DNA of 64,000 bases, taken from Scolanthus callimorphus (lineage: Eukaryota > Cnidaria > Anthozoa > Actiniaria > Edwardsiidae). A program made the position numbers and the translations under genes. The notes beneath the pieces are model-generated. The model was not told where the DNA came from. It made no database searches and was given only the letters and a program-made list of their open reading frames with translations. Shown here in pieces: positions 14,381 through 54,253 of the stretch. The stretch lies in the NCBI GenBank assembly GCA_033964015.1, contig CM066919.1, positions 16,037,646-16,101,645 of the forward strand, given 5' to 3'. Numbering within the stretch: position 1 is the stretch's first letter; each line of letters starts with the position of its first letter.

Positions 14381-14696
14381 TTTAGAAAATAACACCCATG
14401 TTATATTGTGAATGTGCGCATTCTGATTGGTTAAAAGGCGTGTTTGTAAGAGACCTGAGAAACACGATTGTCACGCAACGCTGTCGCGCGTGTGTATGTT
14501 ATTTTCTAAAAGCAATAAAAATACTTTCTGCGTGCTCTCTGGTTTCTTACAAACACTCGGGGAATGTTGGTCGAACTGATAAAACTTGAAAGACACAAGC
14601 CGAGGCTCGTGTCTTTCAAGTTTTGATCAGTTCTCCCAACATCCCCCTCGTGTTTGTAAGAAAACAGAGAGCACGCGGAAAGTACTTTTATTGCTT
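14381..14696 (+). mobile_element. Splint (double-hairpin) element DH1
   Basis: Left end TTTAGAAAATAACA pairs with internal TGTTATTTTCTAAA (14497-14510). Immediately after it, AGCAATAAAAATACTTTC (14511-) pairs with the right end GAAAGTACTTTTATTGCT. The second stem is long: about 90 bases per arm to a centre near 14600. TTCTGATTGGTT lies in the first hairpin at 14421-14432. TA follows the right end. No coding content. See the family-level finding. Confidence 0.8.
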
Positions 14697-15119
14697 AATT
14701 AACGTTTTTCCCGAGTATTAGTTTTAGGTGATTTAGAAAACGAAACACGATGATTAACCAAGTTTCGTCGGGCTCTGAAAGCTAAATGCTCATGAATTCT
14801 TGAAAAGTATCTGAAATAGAGCGGATTTCAGATGACTGTCGTGTGTTATTAGCGGAGCTCCTGCGCGGGCCGAAGGCCCGCGCAAGCGGAGCACCATACC
14901 TAAGGGAAAAACGTATAGTATACTATCGAGTTGATTTTTGAACGTCACGGGCATTTTGGATCATTTTGATGACGTCATTGATGACGTAAGGGCACGTGAC
15001 TTTGGTGTAGGGCTCCTCTTATGGTCTATGAAACTTTGTCCAAGTTTGGCTTCTATAGAAGCTTCCCTTCGGGAGATATGATTTTTTCTTTATTGTTCTG
15101 GTATTAAACCTATAGCGTA

Positions 15120-15165
15120 CGCCGTCCGTCCGTCCGTCGTCCGTCCGTCCGTCCGTCCGTCCGTG
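15120..15165. repeat. CCGT microsatellite
   Basis: A run of CCGT/CCGTCCGT units inside the composite element. The corresponding place in copy 2 carries a GGCGGAC run (about 51690-51720). Confidence 0.9.
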
Positions 15166-15291
15166 TACACATGGGAACCCTGTGGTATGCAAAGAAAAAT
15201 TATATCTCCTCAAGGGAACATGCTAAGACAACCATACTTGGGATATTTTGTCTATGCCACAAGGGGGGTGCTGTAACATGGACACGTGATG

Positions 15292-16130
15292 TGACGTCAT
15301 CGATGACGTCATCTATGCTTGAAAAATCAATATCTCGTGAAGGGAAGACTCTAAAACAACCAAACTTGGGTAGTGTAGTCTAGGCCACAAGATGACCGAA
15401 ATGAGGTGGTCACGTGATATGACGTCATCGATGACGTCATCTATGCTTGAAAAATCAATATCTCGTGAAGGGAAGACTCTAAGACAACAAAACTTGGGTA
15501 GTGTAGTCTAGGCCACAAGATGAGCGAAATGAGATGGTCACGTGATATGACGTCATCGATGACGTCATCTACGCTTGAAAAATGAATATCTCATGAAAGG
15601 AAGACTCTAAACCAACCAAATTTGGGTAATGTAATCCAGGTCGCCAGATGAGCGAAATGAAGTGGTCACGTGATGTGACGTCATCGATGACGTCATCTAT
15701 GCTTGAAAAATCAATATCTCGTGAAGGGAAGACTCTAAAACAACCAAACTTTGGTAGTGTAGTCTAGGTCACTAGATGAGCGAAATGATGTGGTCACGTG
15801 ATGTGACGTCATCGATGACGTCATCTATGCTTGAAAAATCAATATCTCGTGAAGGGAAGACTCTAAAACAACCAAACTTTGGTATTGTAGTCTAGGTCAC
15901 TAGATGAGCGAAATGAAGTGGTCACGTGATGTGACGTCATCGGTGACGTCATCTATGCTGGAACAATCAATATCTCGTGAAGGGAAGACTCTAAAACAAC
16001 CAAACTTTGGTAGTGTAGTCTAGGTAACTAGATGAGCGAAATGAAGTGGGCACGTGATATGACGTCATCGATGACGTCATCTATGCTTGAAAAATTAATA
16101 TCTCGTGAAGGGAAGACTCTAAAGCAACCA
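15292..16130 (+). repeat. Seven-unit 128-bp tandem array with CRE palindromes
   Basis: The perfect palindrome TGACGTCATCGATGACGTCA, or a one-base variant, starts at 15292, 15420, 15548, 15676, 15804, 15932 and 16060. The spacing is exactly 128 bp throughout. Each unit also has CACGTGA just before the palindrome, then ATCAATATCTCGTGAAGGGA and CCAAACTT. TGACGTCA is the full CREB/ATF site, so each unit carries two. Whether factors bind is inference. Confidence 0.95.
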
Positions 16131-16354
16131 TGTAAACCATGTACACATGGGAATCCCTTTCATTCACAGAAAATTTTATAACCAGGAGCTCCGCTTTTAG
16201 CCAGTGGCTAAATCTATATATTAGTAATCACTTTGTACACTCATATAAGTTTTATTCGGAATCGGTGTTTAAAAACAAATCACTGGACGTAAACGCTTAA
16301 AGTTTCACTACAGTCATATGGAATCACTCTATTCACAAATGAATTGTCAATCAA

Positions 16355-16762
16355 AATGTTCGGAACGACAGAACCCAAAAATGGCAAGATTTCTACCCTA
16401 AGGTCAGGTAAAGTCAGATAGGCTTGATTCTTTGCATAGAGTATCCTTATACAATAAGAAACAAAATAGAAATGAGTATTTTTTTCTAATTGATCCGTCA
16501 GATATCAGCTGCTAAACTTTGGTTACTGCATCGTTTTATGGCAAAATTTGTACAATTCTAACAAAAAATGTCAAAAAGTGCTGCAGCAACCAAAGTGTAA
16601 CTCCTCATATCTTAAAGACGGATCAATTAGAAAAAAATACTCATTTCTATTTTGTTTCTTATTGTATAAGGATACTCTATGCAAAGAATCGAGCCTATCT
16701 GACTTTACCTGACCTTAGGGTAGAAATCTTGCCATTTTTGGGTTCTGTCGTTCGGAACTGGT
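16355..16762. mobile_element. Large foldback element with about 145-bp arms
   Basis: The left arm (about 16357-16500) from GGAACGACAGAACCCAAAAA is nearly the exact reverse complement of the right arm (about 16618-16760) ending GTCGTTCGG. The loop itself contains a smaller inverted pair (CTAAACTTTGG / CCAAAGTGTAAC). The near identity of the arms implies a recent origin or arm conversion. No coding content. Confidence 0.85.
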
Positions 16763-16929
16763 CTGGCCTCAGCCTTAGCGAAGCGCGAATGTAACCAGCA
16801 TAGTGCCATCCTTAAATGAAAATAAACTGTTCAAGAGATACAGCCATTTTTAATTTCATGCAAATTTGATGACGTCAGGTTAGGCTAAATCAAGTGTCAC
16901 AAAGAACGAAAACACCACCTGCTTAAATG

Positions 16930-17135
16930 GAGCATTATGGTGCGTTTCACAGGGAATTTCTGCAGAAACGACCCATCCATGGGAAAAGCTGAATTTCCCA
17001 TGGTAGAAGCATGGGAAGCCTTCGAATTTCCCATGGCTATTCATGTGACTTCCGAACACTTCCCATGCGTGTAGCTTGGGAAATTCAGCTTTTACCATGG
17101 ATGGGTTTCTGCAGAAATTCCTTGTGTTTGAAGAC
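16930..17135. mobile_element. Foldback MITE, CCCATCCATGGGAAAG family (copy 2)
   Basis: GGAATTTCTGCAGAAACGAC and CCCATCCATGGGAAAAGC on the left are mirrored by ACCATGGATGGG then TTTCTGCAGAAATTCC on the right. It matches copy 1 at 13405-13565. CATGGGAA-type words in the middle add internal stems. Confidence 0.8.
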
Positions 17136-17354
17136 AAAATATCCCCTCCCTTGAACTCATTTCGAATTGTCTTGCATACTCCTTTCAACAGCTCTGCCTC
17201 AAACTCGAGTGGATTTTGGCCTCATCTGAACTCTTGGAAACCTAACTCTAAAATCACGTAAACAGGAAGAAATCGGCTTAAGGGAGCAGTTCGTGCGTGT
17301 TACCTGTTTCACGCCATTGAAGTTGACAGAAATAGCCGCAATACTTCCAATGAC

Positions 17355-17510
17355 GTTCTGAACGACTATGTAGTCTTAGCCATGGGCATTAGGAACACAT
17401 GTGGCTTTGAATTTAAACTAAAAAGCGCACGGCATTGTTCTGAATGACTGCAGAGTACTCTTAGCCATGGGCATTAGAAACACACGTGGCCTTGAATTTA
17501 AACTAAGCGC
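17355..17510 (+). repeat. Two-copy direct duplication, about 80 bp
   Basis: GTTCTGAA followed by TCTTAGCCATGGGCATTAG, then AACACA-GTGGC and TTGAATTTAAACTAA, occurs at about 17355-17430 and again at 17436-17505, with scattered differences. Confidence 0.75.
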
Positions 17511-17519
17511 CCCTCCCTC

Positions 17520-18765
17520 CCCGACCACCATTACTGAGAGACTTCCTCAACGCGGGCTAAATCTAGCTTTGATTAAAATGACTCTGTCCCGATTGCTTGT
17601 TTTCCTAGACGCAATCATTACGTGATGTTTCCCTTTCATCTCGAGAGACCCTGAGAGCTGTTAGTTCAGGGCTGTCTGATCAGCGTTTGGGAGTCGTGAG
17701 CAACTGCACGCTGTGGCACTGTACATGACTAAAGTAGAATTACAATGAAATGATATACGACCCACGTACTAGCCAAACCGAGACAGTTATTGTGAAACGA
17801 GACACTTGATGGATGTTAGCATGACAGTTTTGTATTTGCTAAGAATATTAGGGGAGGGGAGGGTTAGACGGAAGCGAACATTAAAGGCCCATAGTCAACC
17901 GGGAACCTTTGCGCTTTGTTTTCAATTGGATCTATTGTTATTCAACAGCTGTGATTGGCTGATACTGTAGGTCCCAAAGGGGTTCCTATTGTTCTTCGCA
18001 TTTCACAAGTTCAAACTGAAAATGTGCATCGAATTTTCAACTGCGTTTTACTCTTGTGTGCCCGGCTTGGCTTATGGGCCGGAATCATCTTTTCGACTCA
18101 AGGTTTTGCATATCTTTCGGTAGAGTGTCATTCTGATCGTACGTCAGCATATTTTGCACTATTTGGGGCTAAAATTCGCCCGGGTACCAGCAAGATTTAC
18201 AAAATGAGCATAGAAAACATTTTTAAGGCGTTGGTTTTGTGATACGCGGCAGAAACTAGCGTGAACGACTAGCCCGGAGAAACAACTTTACGAAATTAAT
18301 TCTCATGATAGCTATGGCGTATTGTTGCTTTGATTACGGCTTCCAGCGTTCTAAAGCATAATGCGCTTTACCCATAATTGTACACTGTAAACACACTTTT
18401 TGAGAATATTTAGTACATATAAAAGCTTTTTCCCGCTGACAATTTCAGCAGAAAGAATAAACGCAAGGCGGAGTATGTTTGTAACAGACAAAAGGACAAG
18501 ATGGTAAAATGCATGGTTATATTATGCCTAATTTATTGTACGGTTTATACATGAAATAAAGATGTTTCCTAAATCTTTATTGTAAACAACGGATGAAATC
18601 CGTGGGTAAGAAATATATACTAGGCCCAGTTTATCAGAAAAAGGGGTCTAGACCACCTTTTGTGTTTACTGGCCTCATCTTGTAAGATCTGGCCCACTGT
18701 TACTTAGCCTTTTCTAGATCTTGCTTTGCCAGGAACCAATGCGTGGAATACAGTGTATTCCACGG
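17520..18765. other. No gene recognised
   Basis: Several short open frames on the plus strand (for example 17955-18242) have no recognisable domain, no splice context and no coding-like composition. Nothing else is supported here. Confidence 0.4.
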
Positions 18766-18767
18766 GT

Positions 18768-18865
18768 TTACGAAACCCCCCGGGACTCCCTATTTTCACA
18801 CTGGGGTGCTCGTCCTATCCCTTAGCGTATAAAATTGACAGATGTGCTATCTCTTAGAGCAGGGG
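18768..18865. mobile_element. Fragment of the poly-G Mutator-like MITE family
   Basis: CCCCCCGGGACTCCCTATTTT then GGGGTGCTCGTCC and CCCTTAG words match the terminal region of the family. Highly diverged and short. Confidence 0.45.
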
Positions 18866-19029
18866 ACCTTTATGTGACGCATGCGCAGATGCACGGCCTG
18901 ATTTGTCTTCAGCTGAGCAAATGCTTGTTTGTTGTCGTGTCGACCGAGTTAATTTCTCCATTCTTATGCGGGAATAAGTAATGTAAACCACAAACGGAGT
19001 TCAACAGAAACAATACTTGTACTTGGGGA

Positions 19030-19200
19030 ATGAATTTTGAGCAGTTTGAGCTTGAGATTGCTTCGCTATTGGCTTCGGCAAAGCAGCTCTATTCAAGGAT
19101 TTCGATTTAATATGGCGGATGTCTGTGATCTGTAGTGGAATTCCCAAGTTAACTTTCTGCCAGCAGCTGAAAGGTGACGTGTCAAATTATCCGCCAAGGT
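19030..19200 (+). other. Possible 5' exon with donor site
   Basis: An ATG at 19030 opens 26 codons (reading MNFEQFELEIASLLASAKQL and six more) before TAA. A second ATG (TATGGCGG context) opens a seven-codon frame. A consensus donor, CCAAG|GTAAGC, follows at about 19199. This looks like a 5' UTR or first exon of an unidentified plus-strand transcript, but no convincing downstream exon was found. Confidence 0.2.
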
Positions 19201-20444
19201 AAGCTTTTAATTACTGTTGGCTTATGTAGGTCTCTCTTTGAGAAATCGCACCAAGGGGTTTTGTGGAATCTTTCGTTGAGCTTCCTTGCTGTAATGCAAA
19301 AAGCCGATTTCTTATCGTCTTGCCAGAATGTGCTTTCAAAATCTAGTCATTGTGCCACAGAGTTCTCAGTGAAAAATGGAAGTACTATTATTTTGAAATT
19401 CGTTTATCTAACGGGGATGAAACAGAAAATGGGGGAAGTTATGTGTTTTTGGTTCGACAGTTACGCACATGAGTTTCAGTGGTTGTTGTTCTTGGACTCC
19501 CACTTTCCTCACGGGGAATATTAGATCTGGAAATAAGTCACAAGCAGTTTCTAGGACCCAGTTTAAATGAAACCATTTGATTTCCTTGAGATCGGCAGCA
19601 AAATCGGGTCTTCACTCGAGTTCTAAAATCTGCTTGAAAATGTTGTCTCATGAATATTAATTAATTGAACATTTTTCGAAAACTGCTCGTTGTGCCACTG
19701 AAGTATCTCTCGAAAACAAAACTACATTCTATATGTCTTCATTGTGTGGTGCTAATTTTTTGGAAATAATGGGGAAGTTAAGGATTTTTTGGTGTGTTTA
19801 CCTACAGGACACCTATGCTTGGGCAATGCTCCTTAGAAATATTTTCACTTAAATAGCTGTTGCAAGAACTGAAGTGCTCAGTTTGTTTGCCCAGAAAGCA
19901 AAATAAATTGAGATCTGAGCTGGTATAAAAAAGCACTGCTAGTTGTGTATACTTACTGAATTTAAAAATAAATTTGGTGAGAAATTGGATTTTTTGATTA
20001 ACCATTTGACTTGTGAGTGGAAATTGTAGATCTGTTACAGTGAAATGAAATGTTCTCTTCCCTACAATTTTGCAATATTGCCTAGCAACATTGATGGACA
20101 ACTTGCTTGAGTCAAAGTCCAAAAAATCTTTTGTATCTGTCTTCATGACATTGTACCAGAACTTGAATATTTTGTTTCCAAAATCGTTCAATTATGGTCT
20201 GCCCCTCCAGTGCTCAGACATGTGGCGAATTTAAGTTGCTCACGAGAAATTGTAATTTGATACCAAAGTTGTCCATCAGTGTTGTCCATCAGTGTTAAGA
20301 GCAAAGAGAACAACCTGTGTGAGTGTAAAGAATACAAATTTCACTTCCCTTCTCCTGGTTACTATGCATTAAAAAGGAACGTTTTTTAGAAGCACCTGAT
20401 AAAAGATATAATAGAGGGTAGGACATTCAGAAGTACCTTGTTGT

Positions 20445-20560
20445 ACATTGTTTGTTGCAGGTTCCGAAGGTGTAGGTGTACATGTATATGCCCAATTCAC
20501 AGGGAAGGAACATAATGCCATTCTTGTCTGGATGACACAAAACAACTTCATCCTGTAACC
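20445..20560. other. Exon-like island, strand ambiguous
   Basis: On the minus strand a TTTGGTTACAG acceptor and an AAG|GTACTT donor bracket an open 116-base segment reading DEVVLCHPDKNGIMFLPCEL and onward. On the plus strand TTTGTTGCAG precedes a frame reading VHVYAQFTGKEHNAILVWM before a stop. Both look more protein-like than the surroundings. I do not recognise a family. Confidence 0.25.
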
Positions 20561-20599
20561 AAATACCAATTTCTAGCAGAAGTGCTGGTGGTTCAGGGA

Positions 20600-21360
20600 T
20601 GCAACATGTTAGATGTTACAGTATTACGAGAGCATTTCATCGATTGATTTTCAGAAGTAGAACTATAGCAAGGGCTACTTTTAAGAGTTTTCACTACAGA
20701 TAGTTTACTGCTCAGAAGAACATCACAGTGCTGTATCAAAATCCTCTTTGATTCAATTTTTCTTGTGAAAATTATGTTGCCACCTCAAAACCCAATGTTG
20801 TCAACAGGTGTAATTTTGTCAACTGCCCAGGTTCCACTATTACAGAACTTGGCAGAATACTCTGTTAGTTATAAATAGCACAATAAAAAGTTCACCAATT
20901 TGGAGTCTCATATTCCTTGGACATAATCCACCATTTAATCCCAGGGAAGGGTGGTGAAAACTGAGAGCTTGTATTTCCAGGGTGGGTACCCTTCAGTCTG
21001 GGTATTTACACATTGTTTGACAAAATCCCAGCTTGATTAGATACAAAATCTGGGGTTGTAAATCATCAGTAGTCAAATCAATTGAATTCCAGGATAGGTT
21101 ATTCAAATCGAGCCTCTTGAGGTGTGGTGAAACTTGTCCAGATATTTTCTAATAAGGTTATCACACAAACTAATCAACATGTTTGTTTGGTCATTATACC
21201 AGGTTTTATAAGCAAAATTTATGTATCTGCATGGTGCAGAACTAGAAATAGAGCGCTATTTGATAACAAATTCGTGATACTCAACAGGGCTTTTCCCTGA
21301 GCTGAGTCTGCAATGTAAACTTGGAGAGCAGCGGTTATTGCGCATGGCATAAACAAAAAG
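20600..21360. other. No feature recognised
   Basis: Moderately AT-rich sequence without an open frame, repeat or hairpin I can support. Confidence 0.4.
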
Positions 21361-21362
21361 TC

Positions 21363-21662: not shown

Positions 21663-21986
21663 CGAAAACCACTTTAAATTTTACGTAGAAGCATAACAAT
21701 TTTTACTTTGCCGCTATACCCACATATCAAGATAGCAGTGTCGCCTTTCTAGATATTGACCGGGCTTCCTGTGGTATCTTGTCTACCTTGTTGCCAGGCT
21801 TTTGACCGTGAACACAAGAGTGGAAAATGCACATAGCATCTTTCCTCGAGTATATTTGAGTTTTGGTTGAGTTTTAAGCTTTCTAAGCCAATAGAAATAG
21901 TGAAAAAGTTACTGGGATTCTTCGATATTTCCTTATAAGGAAGTTGGAGAATGTCGACACTTCAAGGGAACTATCTTGATATGTTA

Positions 21987-27964: not shown

Positions 27965-28333
27965 AACAAATGTCCTCTGATTTTCTGTGGTATGTCCTCT
28001 TATATACCACGGAATGACGTAATAAAGTGGTCAAAATGTTGTGGACTCACGAGGCGCAGCCGAGTGGGTCCGCAGTACATTTTGTCCACTTTATCACGTC
28101 ATTCCGTGGTATATAAGAGGACATACCACGGAAAATCAGAGGACATTTGTTTTATACCACAACAAAAAGGCAAAAATAAAAAGGCAAAAGCAGCGCGCGC
28201 GCGCAGCCAAACGGTGTTTTCGTTGTTCTTTTTAGCGCGCGCGCTTATGATGGCGCGTTCCGTGGTATGTCCTCTTATGTACCCACGGCTGAGAGCCAAT
28301 CAGAATTCGAGAAACGCGCGCGTTGTGGTATAA
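27965..28333 (-). mobile_element. Splint (double-hairpin) element DH2, inside a Penelope-like ORF
   Basis: Read on the minus strand, left end TTATACCACAAC (28333-28322) pairs with internal GTTGTGGTATAA. Directly after it, AACAAATGTCC pairs with the right end GGACATTTGT (27966-27975). The second stem is about 90 bp per arm. CCAATCAGAAT, the inverse of ATTCTGATTGG, is at 28296-28306. GCGC-rich loops lie inside. It interrupts the GIY-YIG coding sequence, and removing it with one TA rejoins the two homologous parts. Confidence 0.8.
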
Positions 28334-28514
28334 TTACGGATGTATGGTTAGGGGTGTTATGGAAATGGAAAGCGACGGAAGAGTCAGAGTCGAGTGTACG
28401 TCTGTGCTCGTTGAAACGTTCCCGTAATTGTCGTTGGTCTCACATATGTATTGAAGGTTGCAGCGCTTGCAGTTAATCATGTATATAACATTAGAAGCTT
28501 TACATGTGATTTTA
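28334..28514 (-). pseudogene. Penelope-like element, N-terminal part of GIY-YIG domain
   Basis: The minus frame reads ITCKASNVIYMINCKRCNLQ then YI-ET, matching the Penelope GIY-YIG start where NVIYMI and QYIG sit. The canonical glycine is replaced by Cys here. A single-base shift follows, then an ERFNEHR-like stretch. Reverse transcriptase upstream is absent, so this is a remnant. Confidence 0.75.
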
Positions 28515-29405
28515 AGCAATTATTGGATGAGGTTTTTGTGATTTCCAGAATAAACAATGTCGAGACAGGTGGAATCAGGCGAGGCCGTGAGGCCGAGCCT
28601 GATTCCACTTGGCGAGACAATTGTTTATTCTGGAAATCACAAAAACCGAATTCAGTAATTGTTTTATTATACATTGATTCAGTAAAAATACTTTTTTTTT
28701 CTGTCAAGCACTTTCTTTTACACAAGCGCCTTGTTAGATAGGAAAAACATTCAAGTGATCTAGTCTCATTATGCATTGCGCGTGTAGGATCAAGAATCAG
28801 CTAGCTGATTCTTCAAGAATCAGCATGCTGATTCTTGGAGACCATCAAAGTGCGTGATTCCCAAAGTAAAGCGCGCGCATTTAGCCAATCAGAATCGAGA
28901 TAGTGAATACAATGTATAATAATAGAAGTTATCCTACGTGTTTCATTAGTTGACGAAAAAGTGTAATGTGTTAGTCTATCAGCAATATAAAGTTCAAGCC
29001 CCCCCAAAACAAATCATGAGAAAACGTTCCCGTAACTGTCGTTTGGTCTCACATATGTATTGAAGGTTGCAGCGCTTGCAGTTAATCATGTATATAACAT
29101 TAGACATTTTATACGTGATTTTAGAAGTTATCCTACGTGTTTTATTAGTTGACGAAAAAGTGTGTTAGTCCATAAGCAATATAAAGTTCAAGGCCCCAAA
29201 AAATAAATCATGAGAAAACGTTCCCGTACTGTCGTTTGGTCTCACATATGTATTGAAGGTTGCAGCGCTTGCAGTTAATCATGTCTATAATATTAGAAGC
29301 TTTATACGTGATTTTAGAAGTTATCCTACGTGTTTTATTAGTTGACGAATAAGTGTGTTAGTCCATCAGCAATATAAAGTTTAAGCCCCCAAAAACAAAT
29401 CATGA
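28413..29405. repeat. Three tandem units of about 193 bp from the Penelope-like element
   Basis: GAAACGTTCCCGTAA-type starts occur at 28413, 29020 and 29213, and a fourth GAGAAAA start at about 29404. Each unit includes the GIY-YIG start and then GAAGTTATCCTACGTGTTT and CAATATAAAGTT. Unit 1 is split by the element at 28515-28922. Partial tandem copies are typical of Penelope-like elements. Confidence 0.85.
28515..28922 (-). mobile_element. Splint (double-hairpin) element DH3 with empty-site evidence
   Basis: On the minus strand the left end TTATTATACATTG (28922-28910, spelled in reverse as CAATGTATAATAA) pairs with its internal copy at 28664-28676. The adjoining AACAATTACTG pairs with the right end ending AATTGCT (28515-). 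Length is 408 bp. It splits repeat unit 1. Units 2 and 3 read GATTTTAGAAG at the same place, while here GATTTTA and TAGAAG flank the insert, so the target duplication is TA. CCAATCAGAATCG is at 28885-28897. A near-identical element, inverted and carrying a further insertion, is DH4 at 47780. Confidence 0.85.
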
Positions 29406-31617: not shown

Positions 31618-32856
31618 TCACACCCTCCTCCACGGTTGTGATTTTCCTTGTTCAACTCTCACCTGTTTTCCAGACACAGCTCCATTAACTACCGGCATGT
31701 TAGTGTTTACTGATGCATACGCAGACAAAACCGGAATTGTATGTCCACACTGCAAAATTACCTCTTTTCCTTTGATACACTCTTTGACGTCATTACACGC
31801 ATGCGCACAAGATGCCTCACTAGTTTTGGGCTGTTCTGCGGCTCCTACATTTGGACGCATTTTACTCTTACAATACCTTGCTATATGTCCGAGCAGTTTA
31901 CAATTATGACATCTTACTTGAGAAAAATCTCTTCTAGCTTGTTCGGACTTACTTTCCTCTCTAGCCTTATTCGCAGAAGGAACATTAGAGTCACTAAATT
32001 CATTAGGGGCAGGAGGCTTCCTTTTATGGGCGAGGGTGAGCTCCCCTATAAGCCTCTGCTATAGTTAACATACCTTCTAATTCATGTGGTTTCCGTTCCT
32101 TTAGAAATGTAGCGAGTTCTCTATTACTAGATGTAATTACCTGTTCTCGGAGAAGCAAATCTTTAACACCTTTATACGACTTCGGTATATCACTAAGACC
32201 TACCCAACGTTCAAACAGATGATCCAATCTCGCGCCAAATTGAGGATATGTCTCACCGTGATCGATTTTTGCAGTACAGAACTTCTGACGAAAACCCTCC
32301 TCAGTGCAGCCAAATGCCTTTAACAACTCTGCCTTAAGCTATCATATGACTCCGAATCATACACAGAAAGTCTACAATAAACATCTAAGGCTTTTCCCGT
32401 TAATAAGGCGCTAAGACTTATACACCACTCCTTCTTATTCCATTTCTGAGATGTTGCATATCTTTCAAATCTATCTAAATATGCGTCTATACTATCTCGC
32501 TTGGGATCAAAGGGTGGGAGCTTAGGCTTTTTGGCAGCCACGCCCTTACTTACATACTTACCATCCGCGCCCCACATCTGCCCAGCTTTAGCTTGAATTC
32601 TCGCTTTCTCTATTTCCATTTCTATCTCTTTCATTTTCTCATTTTCCAGAGCGGATATCCGAGCCAATTCCAACTCTTTGTCCGCCTCTGCTTTGGCTTT
32701 CTCGGCTTCTGCTGCAATTTTCGCTTTCTCGAGCTCTCTGGCCAAGGCCCTTTCCTCCCGTGCCACAGCTTCTCTCTCCCTCGCGAACTCCAGCAGCTCT
32801 TCCTTCTCCAAGCCAATTTCTTTGCCCAGCTTGAGATATCCTTCGAAAGTAGACAT
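31618..32856 (-). pseudogene. LTR retrotransposon Gag-like polyprotein, frameshifted
   Basis: The reading starts at ATG 32856 (MSTFEGYLKLGKEIG). It runs through a Lys/Glu/Ala-rich coiled-coil segment, then a capsid-like region, and then a CCHC zinc knuckle, C-x2-C-x4-H-x4-C (CHNCKLLGHIARYC), near 31880-31925. Two single-base lesions, near 32335 and 32027, divide it into three frames. The sequence stops before a retropepsin active site. Protease, RT and integrase are not present downstream, where a foldback element lies. It is an element-internal remnant and is not expressed as one protein. Confidence 0.8.
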
Positions 32857-40560: not shown

Positions 40561-40764
40561 GAAAGCCGCCTTATTTGAATATGAATGGTACTTTTGTTTG
40601 ATTATGCCTCGTTCTATTAGAAGACGACTATATGGCATTCAGCGATGAAGTAGATACCGGAACCAGCTCGAATTCATTGAGCTGGAGAGCGCAGACCATA
40701 GCTCTAACGCATTAGTGCGCGGAAACTACTGTCCTCGCTTGCACAAAGTTCTACTAACTACAGT

Positions 40765-41209
40765 ATGGCGTGTGAACTGAAAGGATGGAGAAACGTGATA
40801 TGTTTCTTTATTTTCGGTCTCTACATCATGATCTACCAACGAATTCTCTTCGCCGCAGCACAAGATATTCTCGCTGGTTCTTCCTACCCTACAAGCATAT
40901 TGATATTCGCCATTTTCCTCCCAGAACTTATAACAAACTTCGTGTTTCCATGGTTCATTTATCACGTGAATATAACTGCGTCTGTGTGTGTGTCTGTTGT
41001 ACTCAACACAGCTGCGTTTGTGGGGATTACTACATTGGATTCTATTCCAGCTCGTCTTGGCTTCGCTAGTTTGACTGGGGTAGCATACGCCTGGGTTATC
41101 AATGCGTTGTATGCCTTGGCGGCGCGTTTCCCATCTGTTCATGAGCTGAGTGTTACACTAGATGTCGGTACCATGTTTAGCTCTCTTGCTGCATCTTCAG
41201 CATATGCAG
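40765..41209 (+). CDS. Battenin-like gene, exon 1
   Basis: ATG at 40765 follows stop-rich sequence and starts MACELKGWRNVICFFIFGLY. It is open for 148 codons and ends in phase 1 at donor AG|GTACTA. The residues AAAQDIL match the SAAHDIL motif of vertebrate CLN3, and there are about four hydrophobic segments. Confidence 0.7.
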
Positions 41210-43610
41210 GTACTATCCAAATTTGACAAGATTATATTGAACAATTAGTCGCCGAATGCGATGTGTAGCGAATAGTCACTAGTCAAGGTGACTATTTGCC
41301 GAGACTAATCACAAAAACTTGTCTTTTTTAACGATCTTGACAAAACGCGCGCGCGTCCGTACACAATGCTTTTATTTCAAATGTTAGTCATAACTCTGCA
41401 AAAAGATACACGCTGCTTGCGGCCCCTTGTTCGGCGAACGTCCGTTAGTCTAGGGAAATGTTTTTGTTTTTACGCGCGGCGTTTCGATTTGTTTAAGGTG
41501 ATGATTACGCCATAGAGCGGTTTTCACATGACTGTGGTGAAAACAATTGCAATTGAGCAATCACTATTTTAATCATTGTCCAATCATTGTCCAATCAGAA
41601 TCGAGAGAAATCACGACTTGCTCCTAAATGGCTTTTTTCTCAGCCAATTGAATGCCGAACCAATTACTAAGTAATTACACAATTGTGTTTACTAGAGAAT
41701 TTGATTGGCTGAGAAAAACGAGTAGCCAATGAGAACACAAAGCAATCGCAATTACATAACAAGTCTTGACAGTCATAATAATAATAATAATATACATTTA
41801 TATAGCGCTCATACGACCGTTCTAAGCGCTTTACAACTAGAATGACATAAATAAAATGAAAAATTATAATATAGTTAAGTAATGGTCCGTATAAGAGCTA
41901 CCCAAGCTAACGGCAGAGCATGCTGGAATGCAATTATGTTCTATTGAAAATATCAGCGATTTCATTGGCTTAGACACAAAAATTGGTAAAGTTACCACGA
42001 AAGAAAGACTTTTCTCAGGATTTATGGTAAGATATAAGCACATGTGGTACTCATATACAGGATATACGATTTTTAAAGACTTCGTATATGGGGAACCTAG
42101 CGTGAAATAGTGATTCTTTTTCCATTGTTTTCCTTTAATCTGATTGGTCTGGGGAGTTATTATCGCCATATTTTCTCAAGCAAGTCGAAATTAATAATTG
42201 TTTCACTTGTATTATGTTACTAGTCATGACAACTTTCTGTGGTAAAACAAAGGGACACATCCTATGTGGGAACATATGCCATAGAACAATGGAGTTTCGG
42301 TTCCTTCTTGCATGGATGACTACTTAAAACAAATAAAAATGAGTAAAATCGTAACACTTAATAAAATAAAAAAAGAGAAATGGCAACTACATGAAGTGTA
42401 AAATAATATATGGTAAAAACTGGGTAAAAAGTAAAAATCATAAAAACTAAAATAATAGTCATGTGAAATCCGCTCTAACAGGTCGGGAAGTGCCATCGCG
42501 ACAGCATAAAAAGCGCTAAAAATCTGATATTATTAATTAGAGCAATAGCAAAATTGGTTGTGTAATAGATATTGTTTTGCTTTCTGTTGAAATTTTTTGC
42601 CATATTGTTGTTGAATTGAAGATATTGTGCGTCTTCCAGTTTCTGTGCGGTTGCGTGGTTTGTACATGTTGTCATTTATTGCGTATTGTGTGTTGAATGT
42701 CTACACTGATTTTCCCAACAATGAGCACAGTATTCATTATGAATCGCACTGACATCTGCTCTATACCACAGGGATGACCTTGACGCTGTGTGTCTCCCCT
42801 CGAGTGACAATCGCGGCCTCGACCTCATGCTGTCTCATCTTCATCGCGGCGTACCTCTTACTCGACAAAACGGAGATGGACTCAACACCACAGGGTGACC
42901 GGGATGAAATAACGTACCAACTCGTGAAGTCCGAGGAAAATGGCAAGACGAGGCTCGTGACAATGAAACAATCGAACATCAAGGGCTTCTAGGAAGACTT
43001 CAACTTGTGAGAAAATATATCCGATTTTATTTTACGAATATTTAGGCATAAGCATCGTCTTTCTTTCTCAATTCGCCGTGCTAACCACCCTAGCATTTCC
43101 AAACGCCCACTCCTACCTGAAAGCCATTACAAGTATTATATTCTCGCATCTGCCCTGTCACAGTTCATAGGTGGTATTAAGATTATTCTAGTTGGGCGAT
43201 TTTGTCCCAAACTCGTTCAATTTGTACGCGTCTACAAACTGTGGACTCTGGTCTTTCTCCTGGCGTGCCATCTTGTGTTTTACATCATGGCCTCGTGGTT
43301 TCGGTTCGTTCCTCATGTCGGTATAATAATCATGCTTAGTTGTACCCAAGGGTTTCTTAGCGGCTCGCTAGAAGTCAATTCAACACTGGCCGTAGTGGAC
43401 ACCTTACAATCGTCTGTTTATAGAGCTATTGGTCTTGGTCTCTTAATATTTTCGTACAATGCCGGTGAACTAGCGAGTAGTTTGGCGAGTTTTTACGTGG
43501 AACCCAAATTTAGGTGGCATTGCGAGAAAACTCTGATGCTAGGGCAGTATTGTTTCACCAGAGCAAATCGTACGGGTGGATGGAGTGAGTCAGTGTGTAG
43601 TGCTAGTTAG
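40765..43610 (+). CDS. CLN3/battenin-like multi-pass membrane protein, two recognised exon blocks, frame lesions
   Basis: Exon 1 (40765-41209) and a second block (42772-43610) flank a 1.56-kb intron that carries a MITE. The order of segments follows battenin: WRN-x-x-x-FF then AAQDIL, a set of hydrophobic helices, a cytosolic loop, then ALSQFIGGIKIIL, LWTLVFLLACHL, QGFLSG and VNSTLAVVD, ending in a short tail. CLN3 is a lysosomal/endosomal membrane protein; function here is by homology. The splice join at AG|GTACTA and CCACAG|GG is in frame. In the second block, TAG at 42990 and a shift near 43125 force two compensating frame changes. This is therefore either a recent pseudogene or an assembly error in a real gene. 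Confidence 0.65.
41513..42477. mobile_element. 965-bp MITE with TAGAGCGG-TTTCACATGACT inverted ends, in the battenin-like intron
   Basis: TAGAGCGGTTTTCACATGAC at the left is nearly the reverse complement of GTCATGTGAAATCCGCTCTA at the right. If TA is taken as target duplication, the termini start GAGCGG, as in Tc1/mariner-like MITEs. The interior contains several CCAAT/ATTGG boxes and an (ATA)n block followed by ATACATTTATATAGCGCTC, a retroelement tail that inserted later. Confidence 0.7.
41776..41850. repeat. (ATA)n retroelement tail within the MITE
   Basis: ATAATAATAATAATA followed by TATACATTTATATAGCGC and TTCTAAGCGCTTTACAA. This is a common short 3' end type of LINE/SINE-like elements in marine invertebrates (from memory), here with no coding part. 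Confidence 0.5.
42772..43610 (+). CDS. Battenin-like gene, C-terminal block with frame lesions
   Basis: After acceptor TATACCACAG the frame reads MTLTLCVSPRVTIAAS, a hydrophobic helix and a charged loop, then meets TAG at 42990. In another frame PILFYEYLGISIVFLSQF follows, corresponding to the battenin helix with the FINQGLFE motif. From 43127 the first frame resumes with HYKYYILASALSQFIGG and stays open to TAG at 43608-43610. The lesions at about 42985 and 43125 compensate for each other. Confidence 0.6.
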
Positions 43611-44085: not shown

Positions 44086-44087
44086 AG

Positions 44088-47008: not shown

Positions 47009-47011
47009 TTT

Positions 47012-47700
47012 TATAGTCTTATCTCTCGTATCAGTCAACCGTGAAACAAAAGAATAATTCTATTTTCCATTGTTTCACGGTCAACTGATGCGACAAATAC
47101 GACAGATGAGACAATATGGAAACCAGGCCTAAGCGATTACACCAATTAGTATAAAACATACAGGAGTCAGTGCAAAGTAATTGCAAATTACTCACAGCGG
47201 TAAACGTCGGCAAATCTGCTTCATAGAAAGGAAAAACGCATTGACATTGAAATGGTGTTGTCATACCAATTCTGCCCTAGTTCTGCTTGGCTCATGGGAA
47301 TCCAGGGAGTCCATTTCATCTACTGGATGGAGATTCTACAGCAACAAAAATATCAAGATTTGGTCATCCACAGGTGGCCCAATCACATTTTGTGTATATA
47401 GTAAATAACTTTAAGGATTGTATTGAAAATAAAAACAAAAAGGGCAAAAAGTAACTTGGCTGTCTTCTTTTATCTTTTATGTCATTTTTGCGCAAACTGC
47501 TTGTGTGAATCAGTAAAATGTCTGCCAAGCTCCGGCAGTATTACATGAAAAAACATCTATTGAGTTATTATACGAGGAACAAAACATTTTCTTTTCTTTT
47601 CAAGATTAACTAAAAAACGTATATGATTTGACTAGCAGCTAGCACACGATCGGGAAGCCATTCAACTGCACGTGCAAAACCGGTTCGTAACCTGTTTTCT
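47012..47700. other. No gene recognised
   Basis: GATTACACCAATTAGTATAAA at about 47136 resembles GAGTACACCAATTCTAAATAAA near 903 and GATTACACCAATTCTGAATAAA near 55359, an interspersed repeat fragment. An open frame at 47181-47408 has no recognisable domain. Confidence 0.4.
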
Positions 47701-47779
47701 ACAGTGTAATACGACTTTCAACCGTGTAAGGCCTAGGGCATACGTCGAATTAACGTCGCGTCGAATACATTTAAAACAA

Positions 47780-48959
47780 TTATTATACATTGTACTCACT
47801 ATCTCGATTCTGATTGGCTTAAAGCGCGCGCTTTACTTTGGGAATCACGCACTTTGAGGGTCTCCAAGAGTCAGCATGCAGATTCTTGAAGAATCAGCTA
47901 GCTGATTCTTGATCCTGCGCGCGCAATGCATAATGGGACTAGAGCACTTAAATGTTTTCCCTATCTAATAGTCCGGCGGATTAGCGTAAAAATTGCGCAC
48001 TTTTGGCTAAAGACTTCAGACTTTGCATGTCAATAGTTTTCAGTAATTCGTTGAAGATAAGATATGGAGGCACGCTAAATTTTATTCGTAGCGAAAGCTA
48101 GAACAGTTTTAATGTGAACCATTGTTTTGCCACTGGCAGCCATCCTTGATTCCTTTGTTATTCATGAGCTCTGCGGCACTTAGTGAAATCTTCCATCGTC
48201 CGTGTTTATAGAGTATAGCACAGTACTATGGAAGAAATATCATGCCAAAATTTTAGAGACAAGCTTCGTTTTACACATTTAACACACATGAGGTACCAAT
48301 TATCTCGATCTTTTTTAGAATTTGTTGGTCATTCTTGAAACATTTCATCAAATCTCAGTCAGGCTATTGTTTTACAATATAAATTATAAACATTCACAAT
48401 AAACTGATCGTGACATTTAATAGATCACCAAAAACTCCAAGGAGACGCTTAGCCGAAGTCATTCAGCTCAATCCATAGTTCAGAATTAGCAAATGTTGAG
48501 CTGCTGTGGCTGTGTAGTCTAGAGAACAACTTGAATGTTCACAAAGCTAAGTTCTAAAACCTCATTTGAATAACAAAGCATTCAAAATGGCTGCTATTGA
48601 ACTAAACAAAAGTTAATTCTAGCGTGCCTCCATATCTACGATTTAAAAATATATTGAAAACTATCATCTGGCAAAAAAATGGGGCTTTAGCCTAAAATGC
48701 GCAATTTCCTCGAAAATGTGCTCTAATCCGCCGGACTATAACAAGGCGCTTGTGTAAAAGAAATTGCTTGAAAGAAAAAAAAAGTATTTTTACTGAATCA
48801 ATGTATAATAAAACAATTATTGAATTCGTTTTTTGTGATTTCCAGAATAAACAATGTCTCGCCAAGTGGAATCAGGCTCGGCCGTACGGCCTCGCCTGAT
48901 TCCACCTGTCTCGACATTGTTTATTCTGGAAATCACAAAAACCTCATCCAATAATTGCT
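47780..48959 (+). mobile_element. Splint (double-hairpin) element DH4, interrupted by a Harbinger MITE
   Basis: It is the same family as DH3, in opposite orientation. Left end TTATTATACATTG pairs with internal CAATGTATAATAA, which is directly followed by AACAATTATTG pairing with the right end CAATAATTGCT, then TA. GATTCTGATTGGCT is at about 47803. Without the 770-bp insert and its duplication it would be about 407 bp, versus 408 bp for DH3. Confidence 0.85.
47969..48738. mobile_element. PIF/Harbinger MITE, 770 bp, TAA target duplication
   Basis: TAGTCCGGCGGATTAG at the left is the exact inverse of CTAATCCGCCGGACTA at the right, with looser pairing for about 130 bp more (GATATGGAGGCACGC / GCGTGCCTCCATATC). 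TAA flanks both sides (47966-47968, 48739-48741). The sister element DH3 shows the uninserted site as a single TAA near 28734-28736. No coding content. Confidence 0.88.
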
Positions 48960-49814
48960 TATATAAAGTAATTGGCTATTTGAAATTAGTATATACTACA
49001 CGGGAACCTCCATAGATCGCGCGTTTTGATTGGTTCGCTATCTCGGGATAATGCCATAATATTCCGAGATCGAAAGCATTATCCCGAGATTGAGAAGCCC
49101 GAGTGCAAGTGGTTCGGATATTTTTACTTTCTAAACTATCTGATTCACAATGCAACGGAAAAATCTTTCTCAATTAACTTATGTTGTCTCTTTAGTTTTT
49201 CAAGGTGAATCAGAGAGAGAATGTATTTCTTGAACTTCGAAAATGTGCTGTTCTTGTTTTTCAGTTCTTCGGAATCCCTGAGATCGATGATTCGTTCACG
49301 GCACTTTTGAGAGACGAATTTCATTCACAACAACATATTAATTAAGGCAATTTTGTCGAAAACATATCTATTTTGCCGAACATTTACATGTACCTGTAGG
49401 TTGGAAGGGACAGTAAATCGTAGAAGCCAGTCAAACGTATTTAAAGTGGTCTCTCTTTTTATGAACAAGGTCTTCCCCGTTGTCCGAGAGTTTGAAGAGG
49501 TTAATTTCCCAAATTTCGGTTTGAATATTCCAAACGAATCTTGAATTTCTCTGCCAACAGGTTGAAAAATATAGTCATCCATCGGTGGTGAAATGGCGGC
49601 CAAAGGCAAAGTTTTTTCAGCGAAGCAACTCTGCAGTTTTACAATCCATAATCCAAGGCACAAAATGCGAATTTATCCCTTGAATCCATCCTTGCAACCT
49701 TCTAAAAACTTGAATCGTTTATCGTAGTCGATAATATATAGATTTAGCCACTGGCTAAAAGCGGAGCTCCTGGTTATAAAATTTTCTGTGTGAATGAAAG
49801 GGATTCCCATGTGT

Positions 49815-50590
49815 TAGGCACAGACAGATTCTGCTCGGCAACTTTTGAGCAACTTTTTCAGTTTTGAGCAAATTTTTCAATTCTGAGCAACTTTTTCAAC
49901 TATGAGCAACTTTTTTGATTTTCCGGTATTTACGAGCAAATTTTCACAACAAAATGGCAATTGTGATACATTTTGCCATTTCAAATCAAACACAGAACGA
50001 AAAATATTGCTAAAAAAAAAAAAAAATGAAACAAAATTGTTTTTTTAAAAATCACTTTTTCGTCTTGGGTGCTCAGAGGTCTCTTCAATATATGGATGTC
50101 TCGTTGGGTATCCTGTGTTATTCCAAATATAGAGCAGAAGCAAAACTGGCGGAACCCTATTCAACTTGCTAGAGAAAATTGGGCAGAATGGAACAGAACC
50201 TGACGGGACTTCCTTATTTGTTATAGTCTTCTTTCAAAAATAGTAGCAGCTATTATTGTATTTTGTATGAGTTGGATACTTCAAACGGTAAGTGAGTCTC
50301 TTTTTAATTAATCAACCGTATTGATTAGTATGATTATGCCGGATGGTGTTTAGAATTGCTTGATCTTTTGTAGATATTGAGTTGAGTGCACGTGAACATG
50401 ACTCTTTTGTCATTTTTTAAATATATCAGACGACAAGTGTGAAGGAATGCTCTTATTGGGGGAGCAACTTGTTTGATTATGTGAGCAACTTCTTCAGAAT
50501 TTGAGCAACTTTTGAGCAACTTTTGAGGGTTTTGGGGGCAACTTTTGAGCAATTTTTGAGCAGAATCTGATCTGTCTGAATCTGTCTGGT
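49815..50590. mobile_element. Insertion with GAGCAACTTTT ends inside the composite element
   Basis: CAGACAGATTCTGCTCGGCA plus repeated TGAGCAACTTTTT at the left is mirrored by repeated AACTTTTGAGCAA and GAGCAGAATCTGATCTGTCTG at the right. Copy 1 of the host element lacks this segment, so it is younger. AT-rich interior, no coding frame. Confidence 0.7.
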
Positions 50591-50619
50591 TGCTTTAGAG
50601 TCTTCCCTTCACGAGATAT

Positions 50620-51565
50620 TAATTTTTCAAGCATAGATGACGTCATCGATGACGTCATATCACGTGACCACTTCATTTCGCTCATCTGGTGACCTAGACT
50701 ACACTACCAAAGTTTGGTTGTTTTAGAGTCTGTCCTTCACGAGATATAAATTTTTCAAGCATAGATGACGTCATCGCTGACGTCATATCGCGAGACCACC
50801 TCATTTCGCTCATCTGGTGACCTAGACTACACTACCAAAGTTTGGTTGTTTTAGAGTCTTCCTTTCATGAGATATTCATTTTTCAAGCGTAGATGACGTC
50901 ATCGATGACGTCATATCACGTGACCACCTCATTTCGGTCATCAGGTGGCCTAGACTACACTACCCAAGTTTTGTTGTCTTAGAGTCTTCCCTTCACGAGA
51001 TATTAATTTTTCAAGCATAGATGACGTCATCGATGACGTCACATCACGTGAGCACCTCATTTCGGTCATCTGGTGGCCCGTAGACTACACTACCCAAGTT
51101 TGGTTGCTTTAGAGTCTTCCCTTCACGAGATATTAATTTTTCAAGCATAGATGACGTCATCGATGACGTCACATCACGTGAGCACCTCATTTCGCTCATC
51201 TGGTGGCCTAGACTACACTACCCAAGTTCTGTTGTTTGAGAGTCTTCCCTTCACGAGATATTAATTTTTCAACCATAGATGACGTCATTGATGACGTCAC
51301 ATCACGTGACCACTTCATTTCGGTCATCTGGTGGCCTAGACTACACTACCCAAGTTTGGTTGTTTTAGAGTCTTCCCTTCACGAGATATTGATTTTTCAA
51401 GCATAGATGACGTCATTGATGACGTCACATCACGTGACCACCTCATTTTGGTCATCTGGTGGCCTAGACTACACTACCCAAGTTTGGTTGTTTTAGAGTG
51501 TTCCCTTCACGAGATATTGATTTTTCAAGCATATATGACGTCATCGATGACGTCACATCACGTGT
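50620..51565 (-). repeat. Eight-unit 128-bp tandem array with CRE palindromes
   Basis: TGACGTCATCGATGACGTCA or one-base variants start at 50638, 50766, 50894, 51022, 51152, 51280, 51408 and 51536. The period is 128 bp except one step of 130 caused by two extra bases (GGCCCGTAG near 51075). Same unit as the 15292 array, inverted. Confidence 0.95.
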
Positions 51566-52269
51566 CCGTGTTACAGCACCCCCTTGTGGCATAGACAAAA
51601 TATCCCAAGTATGGTTGTCTTAGCATGTTCCCTTGAGGAGATACAATTTTTTCTTTGCATACCACAGGGTTCCCATGTGTACACGAAAGGCGGACGGCGG
51701 ACGGCGGACGGCGGACGCTATAGGTTTAATACCAGAAAAATAAAGAAAAAAAAAATCTCCCGAAGTGAAGCTTCTATAGAAGCCAAACTTGGACAAACTT
51801 TTAAAGACCATATAGAGAGGAACTCTACACCAAAGTCACGTGCCCTCACGTCATCAATGACGTCGTCAAAATGAACCATAATGCCCGTGACGTTCAAAAC
51901 TCAACTCGATGGTATACACGTTTTTCCCTTAGGTATGGTGCTCCGCTGGAGCTCCGCTATTAAGGTTTTAAAACAAGTGTTTTCTAGCGTTTTTGCTTCT
52001 CTAAAACAGCAGCAAGTTTCCACCATGTGTTCAGTAGCCTGACGTAATGTCACGTGCGTGACAAACGTCACGCATACAGAAAGAGGCTACAAAATGTCGG
52101 CAAACGCCACATTTAGTGTCGTTCGGATATTTTTTGGAGTGTTCCCGTGTAGTATATACTAAAACAATTATTCTCCTCAGGCTCAGTGAATAGTGGCGAA
52201 TCCCTCGACCTCCGGTCTCGGGGACTATTCGCCACTATTCACTTCGCCTTCGGCGAATAATTGTTAAGT

Positions 52270-52845
52270 GTAATGAGTCGGTATCTTTTGAAAAAAATGT
52301 AACCGACGCGACCAACGACGTGACCTTCGACGTATGCCCTAAGCCTAAGGCCCGTTTTAAACGTGGAACTTAATTCTGTCGCACTAAATTGACTGGGTTT
52401 ATTAGCCAGTGAAAGCAAGTTATTTCGTTACGAGTGATTTTATGAGGTTAATATAGTCTGTCTGGCCAATAGAGAAGATCTCAGCCCTGATTTTAGGAGC
52501 GCTGGCAGGATTCAAAATTGTAATTTAGCACGGCAGTAGCGCGGCTTCCTAATGCAAATGAGCTCGAGACTTAGCGCATAACGGTGATAGAGTCCGAATG
52601 TGTGATGTGCTTCTTAGCGAACGAGTTTTCAGTATGAAACTTGTTATTAGGACATCAATTAAGACATCCCGGTATGCGTACACAAGATTAGATTCGTTTA
52701 TAAACATCTCTTCGTTTACTTGGGAAGTAGAAGATTTGAATCTTTTCTCGACTAGAAACCGATTGACCTGTTTTCACTTTAAAACTGCGAAATTGAGCAC
52801 TTTGTCTTCAATACAAATTTCGACGGCTGCATTTTCGCAATTACC
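52270..52845. other. No gene recognised
   Basis: A 94-codon open frame (52598-52882) ends in the TAA repeat of the adjacent LINE and has no domain. Not annotated. Confidence 0.4.
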
Positions 52846-52849
52846 TAAC

Positions 52850-53970
52850 GTAATAATAATAATAATAGTCTTTATTCAATAATATCTCCAGACAGACGTG
52901 GAAATTTACAATATACAATAATTAATTACAAGTAGGAAAAAAGGCAACGATTAATGAAAGAGCTCTTAAACCGCTTAAACCTCTTAAACGTATTGTTGTT
53001 ATGGATCTGGACCTTCCATTTCTTTGGAAGACAAGAAATTAAATTATTCCATTGTAAAAAATTCCCAGGATTGATCGCTAGTTCATTAACCACCTCCTTC
53101 CATGTAAATAAGCCATTATGACCGCATACGTCACTTTGAAGTAAATTCTTTGATATAATTAATTTCCATTAGCCCTTTAATGCACCGATTATTCCACATG
53201 GATTGATTCAAAATTGAAAACTGGTCACAATCGTCTGCTTCCTCCGCCCAGATTTCTAAAACTTGTTGGTAAAATCGAGGGACTTTGGATGGTATTTTGT
53301 ACTTATCGAAGTTGGTACTAGTACACTTCAGTTCCCCGATCTTTCTTAGATAAACATTAGGATTTAGAATTAGTTTCCAATCTCTTTTTTCGAAAGTGAG
53401 CAGTTGTTTTGCCCACAGAACCATTTGTGCTTTGATAAACACCCCAAAGTCTGGCGCCCTGAGCCCACCTTCTTCATAATTTCCAAGGAGAGTTTCATAC
53501 TTGATTTTGGGTTTTCTACCACTCATATGAATGACTTTAAGTCTGACTGCACCGTTTTGATGAAATAGTCAGGGGCCGGTTCCTGAAAGGTTAGATAAAG
53601 TTATCCACAGATAAAAGTTATCTGTTGTATAGGTTTTCTTCAGGATTTATCCGTTGGATAAGCGTTTATCCACCGATAACTCTTAACTGGCCTTCTAGGA
53701 ACCGGCCCCAGTGGTGTATAAATTTGTGAGCACACACGTACTGGAGTTTCGAAAGTGCCAAATACTTCGCAACTGTAATTTTCCCATACAAAGTCAAAGA
53801 AAATAATAGATAAAATTGCCTTGAACGTTTGAAATGGTTTCTCAAGATTATTTTCCTGATAACAGTTTTCGTTGAAAGAGAAATAGATACCCAAATCCGC
53901 ACACCGGTTCGGGCGAATTTATTTTTTACGCCCACTTCAAGATGGTATAAATATTCATTATTAGTCAAAT
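52850..53970 (-). pseudogene. L1-like LINE ORF2 C-terminal fragment, split by a MITE
   Basis: On the minus strand SLTLYGKITVAKYLALSKLQ (near 53770) is followed, past the insert, by SGRKPKIKYETLLGNYEEGG and FGVFIKAQMVLWAKQLL. This is the region after the reverse transcriptase in L1-like ORF2 proteins. After a frameshift near 53140, LFTWKEVVNELA and NPGNFLQWNNLISCLPKKWK follow. A TAA/TTA repeat tail is at 52850. It is 5'-truncated, with at least three frame lesions. Confidence 0.75.
53572..53709. mobile_element. 138-bp MITE with GGGGCCGGTTCCT inverted ends
   Basis: GGGGCCGGTTCCTGAAAGG at the left is mirrored by CCTTCTAGGAACCGGCCCC at the right. TTATCCAC/GTGGATAA words lie inside. It interrupts the LINE coding region. 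The target duplication is not clear. Confidence 0.85.
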
Positions 53971-54193
53971 CACACTAGTGGTCTATTGTCAATGCTGCGT
54001 TCTGATTGGTTGAGCTACTAGTAGGCTATAAGTTATAGCCTACTAGTAGCGAAAAGTGTTAGATTTGAAAGCCAGAAAATCGCAAATAACCAGACCAGAC
54101 AACGTTTTTTTGCTACATACATTGACCTACTAGTGTGATTTGACTAAAACAATTATTCCTCTCCCCCTCATGGCCTCTGAGTCAATAGCCCAT

Positions 54194-54224
<31 letters not shown>

Positions 54225-54253
54225 GAGCCCATTCGGGATCGAGGAATAATTGT
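53961..54253 (+). mobile_element. Splint (double-hairpin) element DH6, shortest complete example
   Basis: Left end TTAGTCAAATCACACTAGT pairs with internal ACTAGTGTGATTTGACTAA (ending 54147). It is followed directly by AACAATTATTCCTC pairing with the right end GAGGAATAATTGT. TA lies on both outer sides. TTCTGATTGGT is at 54000-54010. The second stem has a TTCGGCCTTCGGCC centre. It adjoins the truncated LINE. Confidence 0.85.

Follow-up and report, generated by a model that had tools for sequence, protein, structure and literature searches.

The stretch analysed here, 64,000 nt of Scolanthus callimorphus contig CM066919.1 (assembly GCA_033964015.1; positions 16,037,646 to 16,101,645, forward strand) and called the window below, carries six small, non-coding mobile elements, E1-E6, in which both ends have complements inside the element and these two complements touch. 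Read in the orientation of the element, all six share one plan, L - [CT]TGATTGG - body - L' | R' - palindrome - R: the left end (L) is matched by L', the right end (R) by R', and R' begins where L' ends, without a gap in any of the six. The elements are, on balance, probably non-autonomous, dispersed Helitron2/Helentron-like single-strand (HUH rolling-circle) transposons, in which L would be the 5' asymmetric terminal inverted repeat (ATIR) and L' its partner. Their topology is already known from Helitron2/Helentron; the variant consists of an exact double “splint”, a long terminal hairpin and a one-sided target.

Anatomy of the six elements

Inverted repeats were computed and the loci read directly. 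E1 (14381..14696, + strand, 316 bp) has L at 14382-14394, L' at 14497-14509 and the hairpin R'..R at 14510-14696. E2 (27965..28333, - strand, 369 bp) has L at 28322-28333, L' at 28152-28163 and the hairpin at 27965-28151; E3 (28514..28922, - strand, 409 bp), which lies inside a 193-bp tandem array, has L at 28910-28922, L' at 28664-28676 and the hairpin at 28514-28663. E4 (47780..48960, + strand) is a member of the E3 family that carries a nested miniature inverted-repeat transposable element (MITE), with L at 47780-47792, L' at 48799-48811 and the hairpin at 48812-48960. The longest, E5 (48986..52265, + strand), houses a nested satellite element; 27 of the 28 bases of its L (48986-49013) are paired with L' (52135-52162), and its hairpin occupies 52163-52265. 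E6 (53961..54254, + strand, 294 bp) has L at 53961-53979, L' at 54129-54147 and the hairpin at 54148-54254. These limits agree to within one base with the six loci for which the first-pass annotation had proposed a common L...L'R'...R plan. In each element the palindrome R'..R abuts L', spans 103-187 nt and supplies the last base of the element, thus forming a 3' hairpin (6/6) that is longer and more terminal than in published Helitron2/Helentron elements. The ATIR arrangement is likewise found in all six: the 5' repeat lies 0-2 nt from the 5' end, and its inverse copy directly upstream of the 3' hairpin.

How exact is the splint? The last 14 bases of the element were joined to its first 14, reverse-complemented and compared with the internal block, the match being scored out of 28. 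E1 and E2 reach 26, E5 27 and E6 28; E3 and E4 score 18 as delimited, and 24 and 25, respectively, at the best of 49 boundary shifts, a shift of one base. The low unshifted score of this family arises because its terminus is one base longer than R', and the tip of R can pair with R' only through a one-base bulge. Among 20,000 length-matched random spans the maximum was 22, none reached 23 and 54 reached 20; the random spans were scored unshifted, which gives the shifted E3/E4 values an advantage over this control. A strict exact-seed scan of the window recovers five of the six (E1, E2, E4, E5 and E6) and misses E3; its other rows fall mostly inside 128-bp satellite arrays, with a few elsewhere (including 8114-9194, 13506-17093 and 13670-14378), and ten first-order Markov sequences yield 0-0.2 rows per gap class. 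A mismatch-tolerant scan of the window was too noisy, with 5,234 raw combinations as against 851-998 in four second-order Markov sequences.

E3 and E4 share 94-97% identity over the whole composite at separate places, which leaves five families, not six. Their left arms differ and change together with L': over columns 4-14 of the left arm, 51 of 55 positions form Watson-Crick pairs with the family's own L', as compared with 43/55 for the best of the other 119 assignments of L to L' and a mean of 26.6 over all. In every family the first 12-14 bases of L are perfectly complementary to L', and the R/R' arms are 78-90% identical. The families are nevertheless not unrelated. Each starts with TTA (E1 with one T more) and ends with TTGTT or TTGCTT, and [CT]TGATTGG occurs at +31 to +43 in all six elements, in a single orientation; it is CTGATTGG in E1 (14423..14430, + strand, at +43), E2 (28296..28303, - strand, +31), E3 (28885..28892, - strand, +31), E4 (47810..47817, + strand, +31) and E6 (54002..54009, + strand, +42), and TTGATTGG in E5 (49026..49033, + strand, +41). 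The window holds 13 such motifs on both strands, 6 of them within the six elements; we take the motif to be a CCAAT/NF-Y-like site. Given the common TTA start, motif position and TTG(C)TT end, descent from one ancestor with co-varying arms would be a simpler account than independent selection of the topology, and the earlier suggestion that the topology was selected rather than inherited is not supported.

A single strand was expected to fold with both termini meeting on the splint, and in prediction it does. Folded with DNA parameters, E2, E6 and E5 (the latter as its first plus last 420 nt) pair their first base with a position p and their last base with p+1; in E1 it is the second base that pairs with p, the last base again pairing with p+1; E3 and E4 likewise pair their first base with p and leave their final three bases free. 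The predicted fold would thus bring both termini together on one internal block. That they meet follows from the abutment of two inverted repeats; the information lies in the exactness of the match, not in the topology. Within the 70 nt that follow the motif, a hairpin falls below 5% of shuffles in four of the six elements. In five of the six the inverted match between the two termini is no better than shuffle level, with 64-120 of 300 shuffles reaching its score, so that no inverted terminal repeats (ITRs) are seen there; E2 is the exception (0/300), its left part repeating its own right palindrome, and the first-pass description of the ends as unrelated by inversion holds for all but this element. 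As a separate observation, right-arm sequence is repeated directly in the left subterminal part of E1 (14439-14460; score reached by 1/300 shuffles) and E2 (28258-28288; 0/300); this repeat is weaker in E3 and E4 (10/300 and 12/300) and absent in E5 and E6.

Genome copies, joints and insertion sites

In the genome assembly (597 Mb, 302 contigs) the elements are dispersed repeats: a first look gave at least 985 candidates for E1 and at least 2,224 for E6 (40 scored for each), and at least 785 for the E5 interior. Could each composite be merely two independent insertions, side by side? In 29 E1 and 10 E6 full-length genome rows laid out, both hairpins are found together, and the same is true of the E3/E4 composite; where looked at, the composite is one moving unit and the objection fails. 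The rows are a selection of those listed; some E1 rows repeat the same place, leaving 22 distinct placements, and two of the E6 rows (L059 and L067) are the window locus and its duplicate on contig C16. The splint is kept in these placements (22 E1, 10 E6), with 11-12 of 12 bases matching for L/L' and 11-12 of 12 for R/R'. With copies this similar (97-98%), maintenance is only weakly tested: the result establishes the plan for the family, not its long-term upkeep.

Some copies stand in arrays. Direct R-L head-to-tail E1 joints occur twice at C4 and twice at C6 and read GCTT-A-TTAG; joints at C8 and C15 contain one more A. The complement of the splint itself reads GCTT-TTAG, and genome copies and array joints have one further A or T ahead of TTAG, so that the splint is exact to within one base of the real joints. 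At C3 (L092, C3:22519000-22520000) an E3-family copy is followed directly by E1, with only one A between them, a result that repeated insertion before the same AA can explain; at C6 (L093) two adjacent E1 copies have an internal deletion in common, suggesting copying or duplication instead. The head-to-tail arrays are compatible with rolling-circle movement, without proving it, and these loci were chosen for their abutting coordinates, so no frequency can be derived from them. Thirteen matches to GCTTNTTAG... comprise the two C4 joints (L009), the two E1-E1 joints at C6, the E3-E1 joint and eight instances of other sequence. Two E6 copies also lie head to head, 6 bases apart, at C2:36290561-36291152.

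Two empty sites show what insertion leaves behind. For E3, two intact units of the 193-bp tandem array supply the empty sequence; the other site, at window positions 48974..48989 (+ strand), is that of a 216-bp E5-family derivative present in the C16 duplicate of the region (L075 4268-4483). In both there is no target duplication except one extra A on the left, and both lack the TTA that the two element boundaries have in common. The derivative keeps L'R'..R and, by eye, about 9 bases of L; it lacks the motif CTGATTGG. The 3' flank is AA in all 29 non-tandem genome placements (19/19 E1 and 10/10 E6) and at five of the six window loci (E4 has AT); position +5 of this flank is A in 10/10 E6 and 12/19 E1 placements, and the 5' flank is loose, being TA at only two of the six window loci. 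Immediately ahead of TTAG, the 19 non-tandem E1 placements carry T in 13 cases and A in 6, yet copies inside arrays carry A, so that neither an element base nor a one-base duplication alone explains this position.

Two of the elements have been entered by others. The MITE nested in E4 (47969..48738, strand unassigned) has 16-base inverted ends and a target-site duplication (TSD), TAA, at 47966-47968 and 48739-48741; it falls outside the plan of E1-E6, and E3, which lacks it, represents its empty site. From its TSD we take this MITE to be PIF/Harbinger-like. The satellite element nested in E5 (about 49732..51959, limits approximate, - strand), built on a 128-bp satellite, has L at 51948-51959, L' at 49760-49770, a hairpin at 49743-49759 and a tail of about 11 nt, the classic plan of ATIR plus short 3' hairpin. 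A second copy of the 128-bp-satellite element lies at about 14850-16220 (+ strand); its ATIR is TAGCGGAGCTCC / GGAGCTCCGCT, and its short 3' hairpin with a tail is HINE/pearl-like. Elsewhere, the window contains a non-LTR reverse transcriptase open reading frame (61182-63998, - strand), CLN3 exons (40708-41223 and 43011-43607, + strand), a SCAN-domain match (32027-32338, - strand) and a DDE_Tnp_4 transposase fragment (58196-58627, + strand).

A candidate mechanism and its alternatives

In the Helitron2/Helentron-like reading, a Rep/helicase supplied in trans would displace one strand, on which R would fold back on R' and L would pair with L'. The 3'-OH and the enzyme-bound 5' end would then meet across one junction, which could both mark the end of the element and align the ends for circle joining or for transfer to the target. 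The single-strand intermediate, the mobilising enzyme, the joining of ends and circularisation are steps that we infer. Genes that might provide the enzyme are present: the genome has at least 150 scored Helitron Rep family matches (of 327 candidates), as against 0 in 14 control genomes. The Rep motif, read in 6 of 30 Rep loci, is RGSPHLH, RGSIHAH or RGSIHCH. The S marks the Helentron type (PMC4067079); the I in place of P or L in RGSIHAH and RGSIHCH is outside the pattern published there. One Rep element of about 8.7 kb (C2:1167493-1176167) has an open Rep frame of 2,174 aa and could be delimited at both ends against a copy on C9; because its end stretches are 99.6-99.8% identical to those of that copy, this Helitron2 is probably recent. 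Its ATIR measures 10 bases, with the 3' copy beginning 41 bases from the 3' end; by eye, one hairpin can be made out on the 5' side and a short one on the 3' side. A classic Helitron2 is thus present in the same genome, and the six elements differ from it by their long, terminal R/R' pairing. Two pattern scans of viral contigs gave 0 matches, and no reverse transcriptase or tyrosine recombinase was found in the window's six elements.

Several observations pull against this reading. Some concern the enzyme: none of the window's 86 stop-to-stop open reading frames of at least 90 aa matches a Rep or helicase at E <= 0.01, and no E1-E6-type ends bound Rep in the three loci read among the at least 150 (the C2 locus has other ends, and the 5' end of another lies beyond the stretch), although the end scan, which missed an unrelated E3-family copy inside one locus, had limited sensitivity and could overlook degenerate ends. 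Others concern structure: the 3' terminus of the C2 Helitron2 has no good complement in its last 400 or first 600 bases (best 7/10); a 5'-terminal hairpin, a Helitron2 feature, is unsupported in the six elements, none of whose first 40 nt fall in the lowest 5% of shuffles; and the 216-bp E5 derivative is predicted to fold with its right end paired and no pairing between its left end and L'. The remainder concern insertion: the AA target is on the hairpin side, while TTTT precedes the published Helitron2 of Chlamydomonas, on the opposite side; array joints carry one or two bases beyond the splint; and the arrays are partly explicable as repeated insertion at one target, as in the E3-family copy followed by E1.

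Some of these observations lend substance to a second account, a tentative one that we rank clearly below the first: a separate, undescribed class of single-strand transposons with its own enzyme, set apart by its exact double splint, by the length of its terminal hairpin and by a target of AA(W) type on one side only. The target signal, both the AA and the A at +5, is indeed confined to the hairpin side; the delimited C2 Helitron2 lacks R/R' pairing; and the three Rep loci yielded no element with E1-E6-type ends. Three loci are few among at least 150, however, and Helitron2 already combines an ATIR with a 3' hairpin. In its most specific form, which we regard as doubtful, the internal near-complement of the joint would be a built-in splint that seals the displaced strand, the enzyme would be the elements' own and would require a target on the hairpin side only, and the left end would be free to vary as long as the splint changed with it. 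Should the double splint and the one-sided target prove to go with an unlinked enzyme, they would define a new transposon group.

Must the splint join anything at all? Since R' abuts L', extension of the paired 3' end of R would copy L, and a self-priming hairpin might thus rewrite L beside R, an end regeneration resembling a rolling hairpin. The mismatch-free pairing of L with L' over its first bases in all families, next to R/R' arms that are less alike, would suit such a process; yet E3/E4, a family that has moved, is predicted to fold with the final bases of R left single, and we consider self-priming unlikely. Cut-and-paste movement of foldback MITEs by a DDE transposase, with a TA-like duplication and the internal block a by-product, is very unlikely: E3 can be read as having a TA duplication, and size and copy number are MITE-like, but TA precedes so few of the window loci, the C16/window empty site has no 2-bp duplication and the termini of five of the six are not terminal inverted repeats. 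Least probable of all is a non-autonomous DIRS1-like element, in which L' and R' would be the internal complementary regions that restore a circle for a tyrosine recombinase. The order and adjacency of the end complements are the same (PMC3266345) and a TSD is absent; the termini, E2 apart, are not inverted repeats, and both empty sites lack the boundary TTA that a shared core would require. On the strength of the ITR tests and the empty sites, the DIRS and TA-duplication readings were set aside.

Relation to known systems

In the accessible portions of the literature searched, from which most subscription journals and Repbase were absent, there is no description of the E1-E6 families, and the question of how elements of the Helitron2 type locate their 3' terminus and bring about end joining is addressed only by a brief repeat-pairing proposal (PMC3627910). 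Short, abundant elements with a strict, co-varying geometry may be useful here, as a small assay could separate end alignment, priming of resynthesis and marking of the terminus. Coral CMITEs, which have TTAA duplications, are of a different kind (PMC2872659).

Helitron2/Helentron elements (HINE, DINE-1 and pearl-like) come closest in plan. Helitron2 is defined by its ATIRs: the 5' copy sits 0-2 bp from the end, the 3' copy directly precedes a 3' hairpin, and pairing between the two has been proposed to set the endpoint of replication (PMC3627910). HINE/DINE-1 elements have the same parts, do not modify the target and prefer TT (PMC4067079); in Fusarium, ATIRs are accompanied by a polymerase chain reaction product with joined ends (PMC5148889), and oyster HINEs carry satellites (PMC7492417). 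The terminal 5' repeat, its inverse directly upstream of the 3' hairpin, the lack of a TSD, an A/T-rich target and high copy number are common to these and to E1-E6 (PMC3627910, PMC4067079). The published 3' repeat, by contrast, lies about 20-30 or 38-60 nt from the 3' end, whereas the hairpin of the six elements measures 103-187 nt and is paired to the terminus; they differ further in the near-exact splint on both sides, the conserved [CT]TGATTGG and the unsupported 5'-terminal hairpin. Published insertions are at TT or TTTT; with L placed at 5', E1-E6 have AA on the hairpin side, and TT appears only on the other strand. Helitron1 (Helraiser) shares the 3' hairpin as terminator, joined-end circles and the lack of a TSD (PMC5876387), but has no ATIR; the six elements run TTA...TTG(C)TT rather than TC...CTRR and do not use an A|T target.

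DIRS, named by the first-pass annotation as the closest parallel, remains a good analogue of the geometry, Helitron2/Helentron being closer. In DIRS1-like elements the internal complementary regions follow the same order, but the ITRs are long and the two ends have a 3-bp junction in common (PMC3266345); E1-E6 resemble them in the adjacent internal complements of both ends, their order, the inferred circular joint and the absence of a TSD, but have neither long ITRs nor a shared 3-bp core, and E1, E2, E3 and E6 are only 294-409 bp long. A more distant parallel comes from IS200/IS605 elements such as IS608, whose ends are recognised by pairing with internal guides beside hairpins, which pass through a circular junction intermediate and which have a one-sided target flank (PMC5934647). 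The IS608 guides are tetranucleotides, the element is bacterial and no relationship to E1-E6 is shown; by analogy only, IS608 demonstrates that HUH transposition can operate through base pairing between ends and internal guides.

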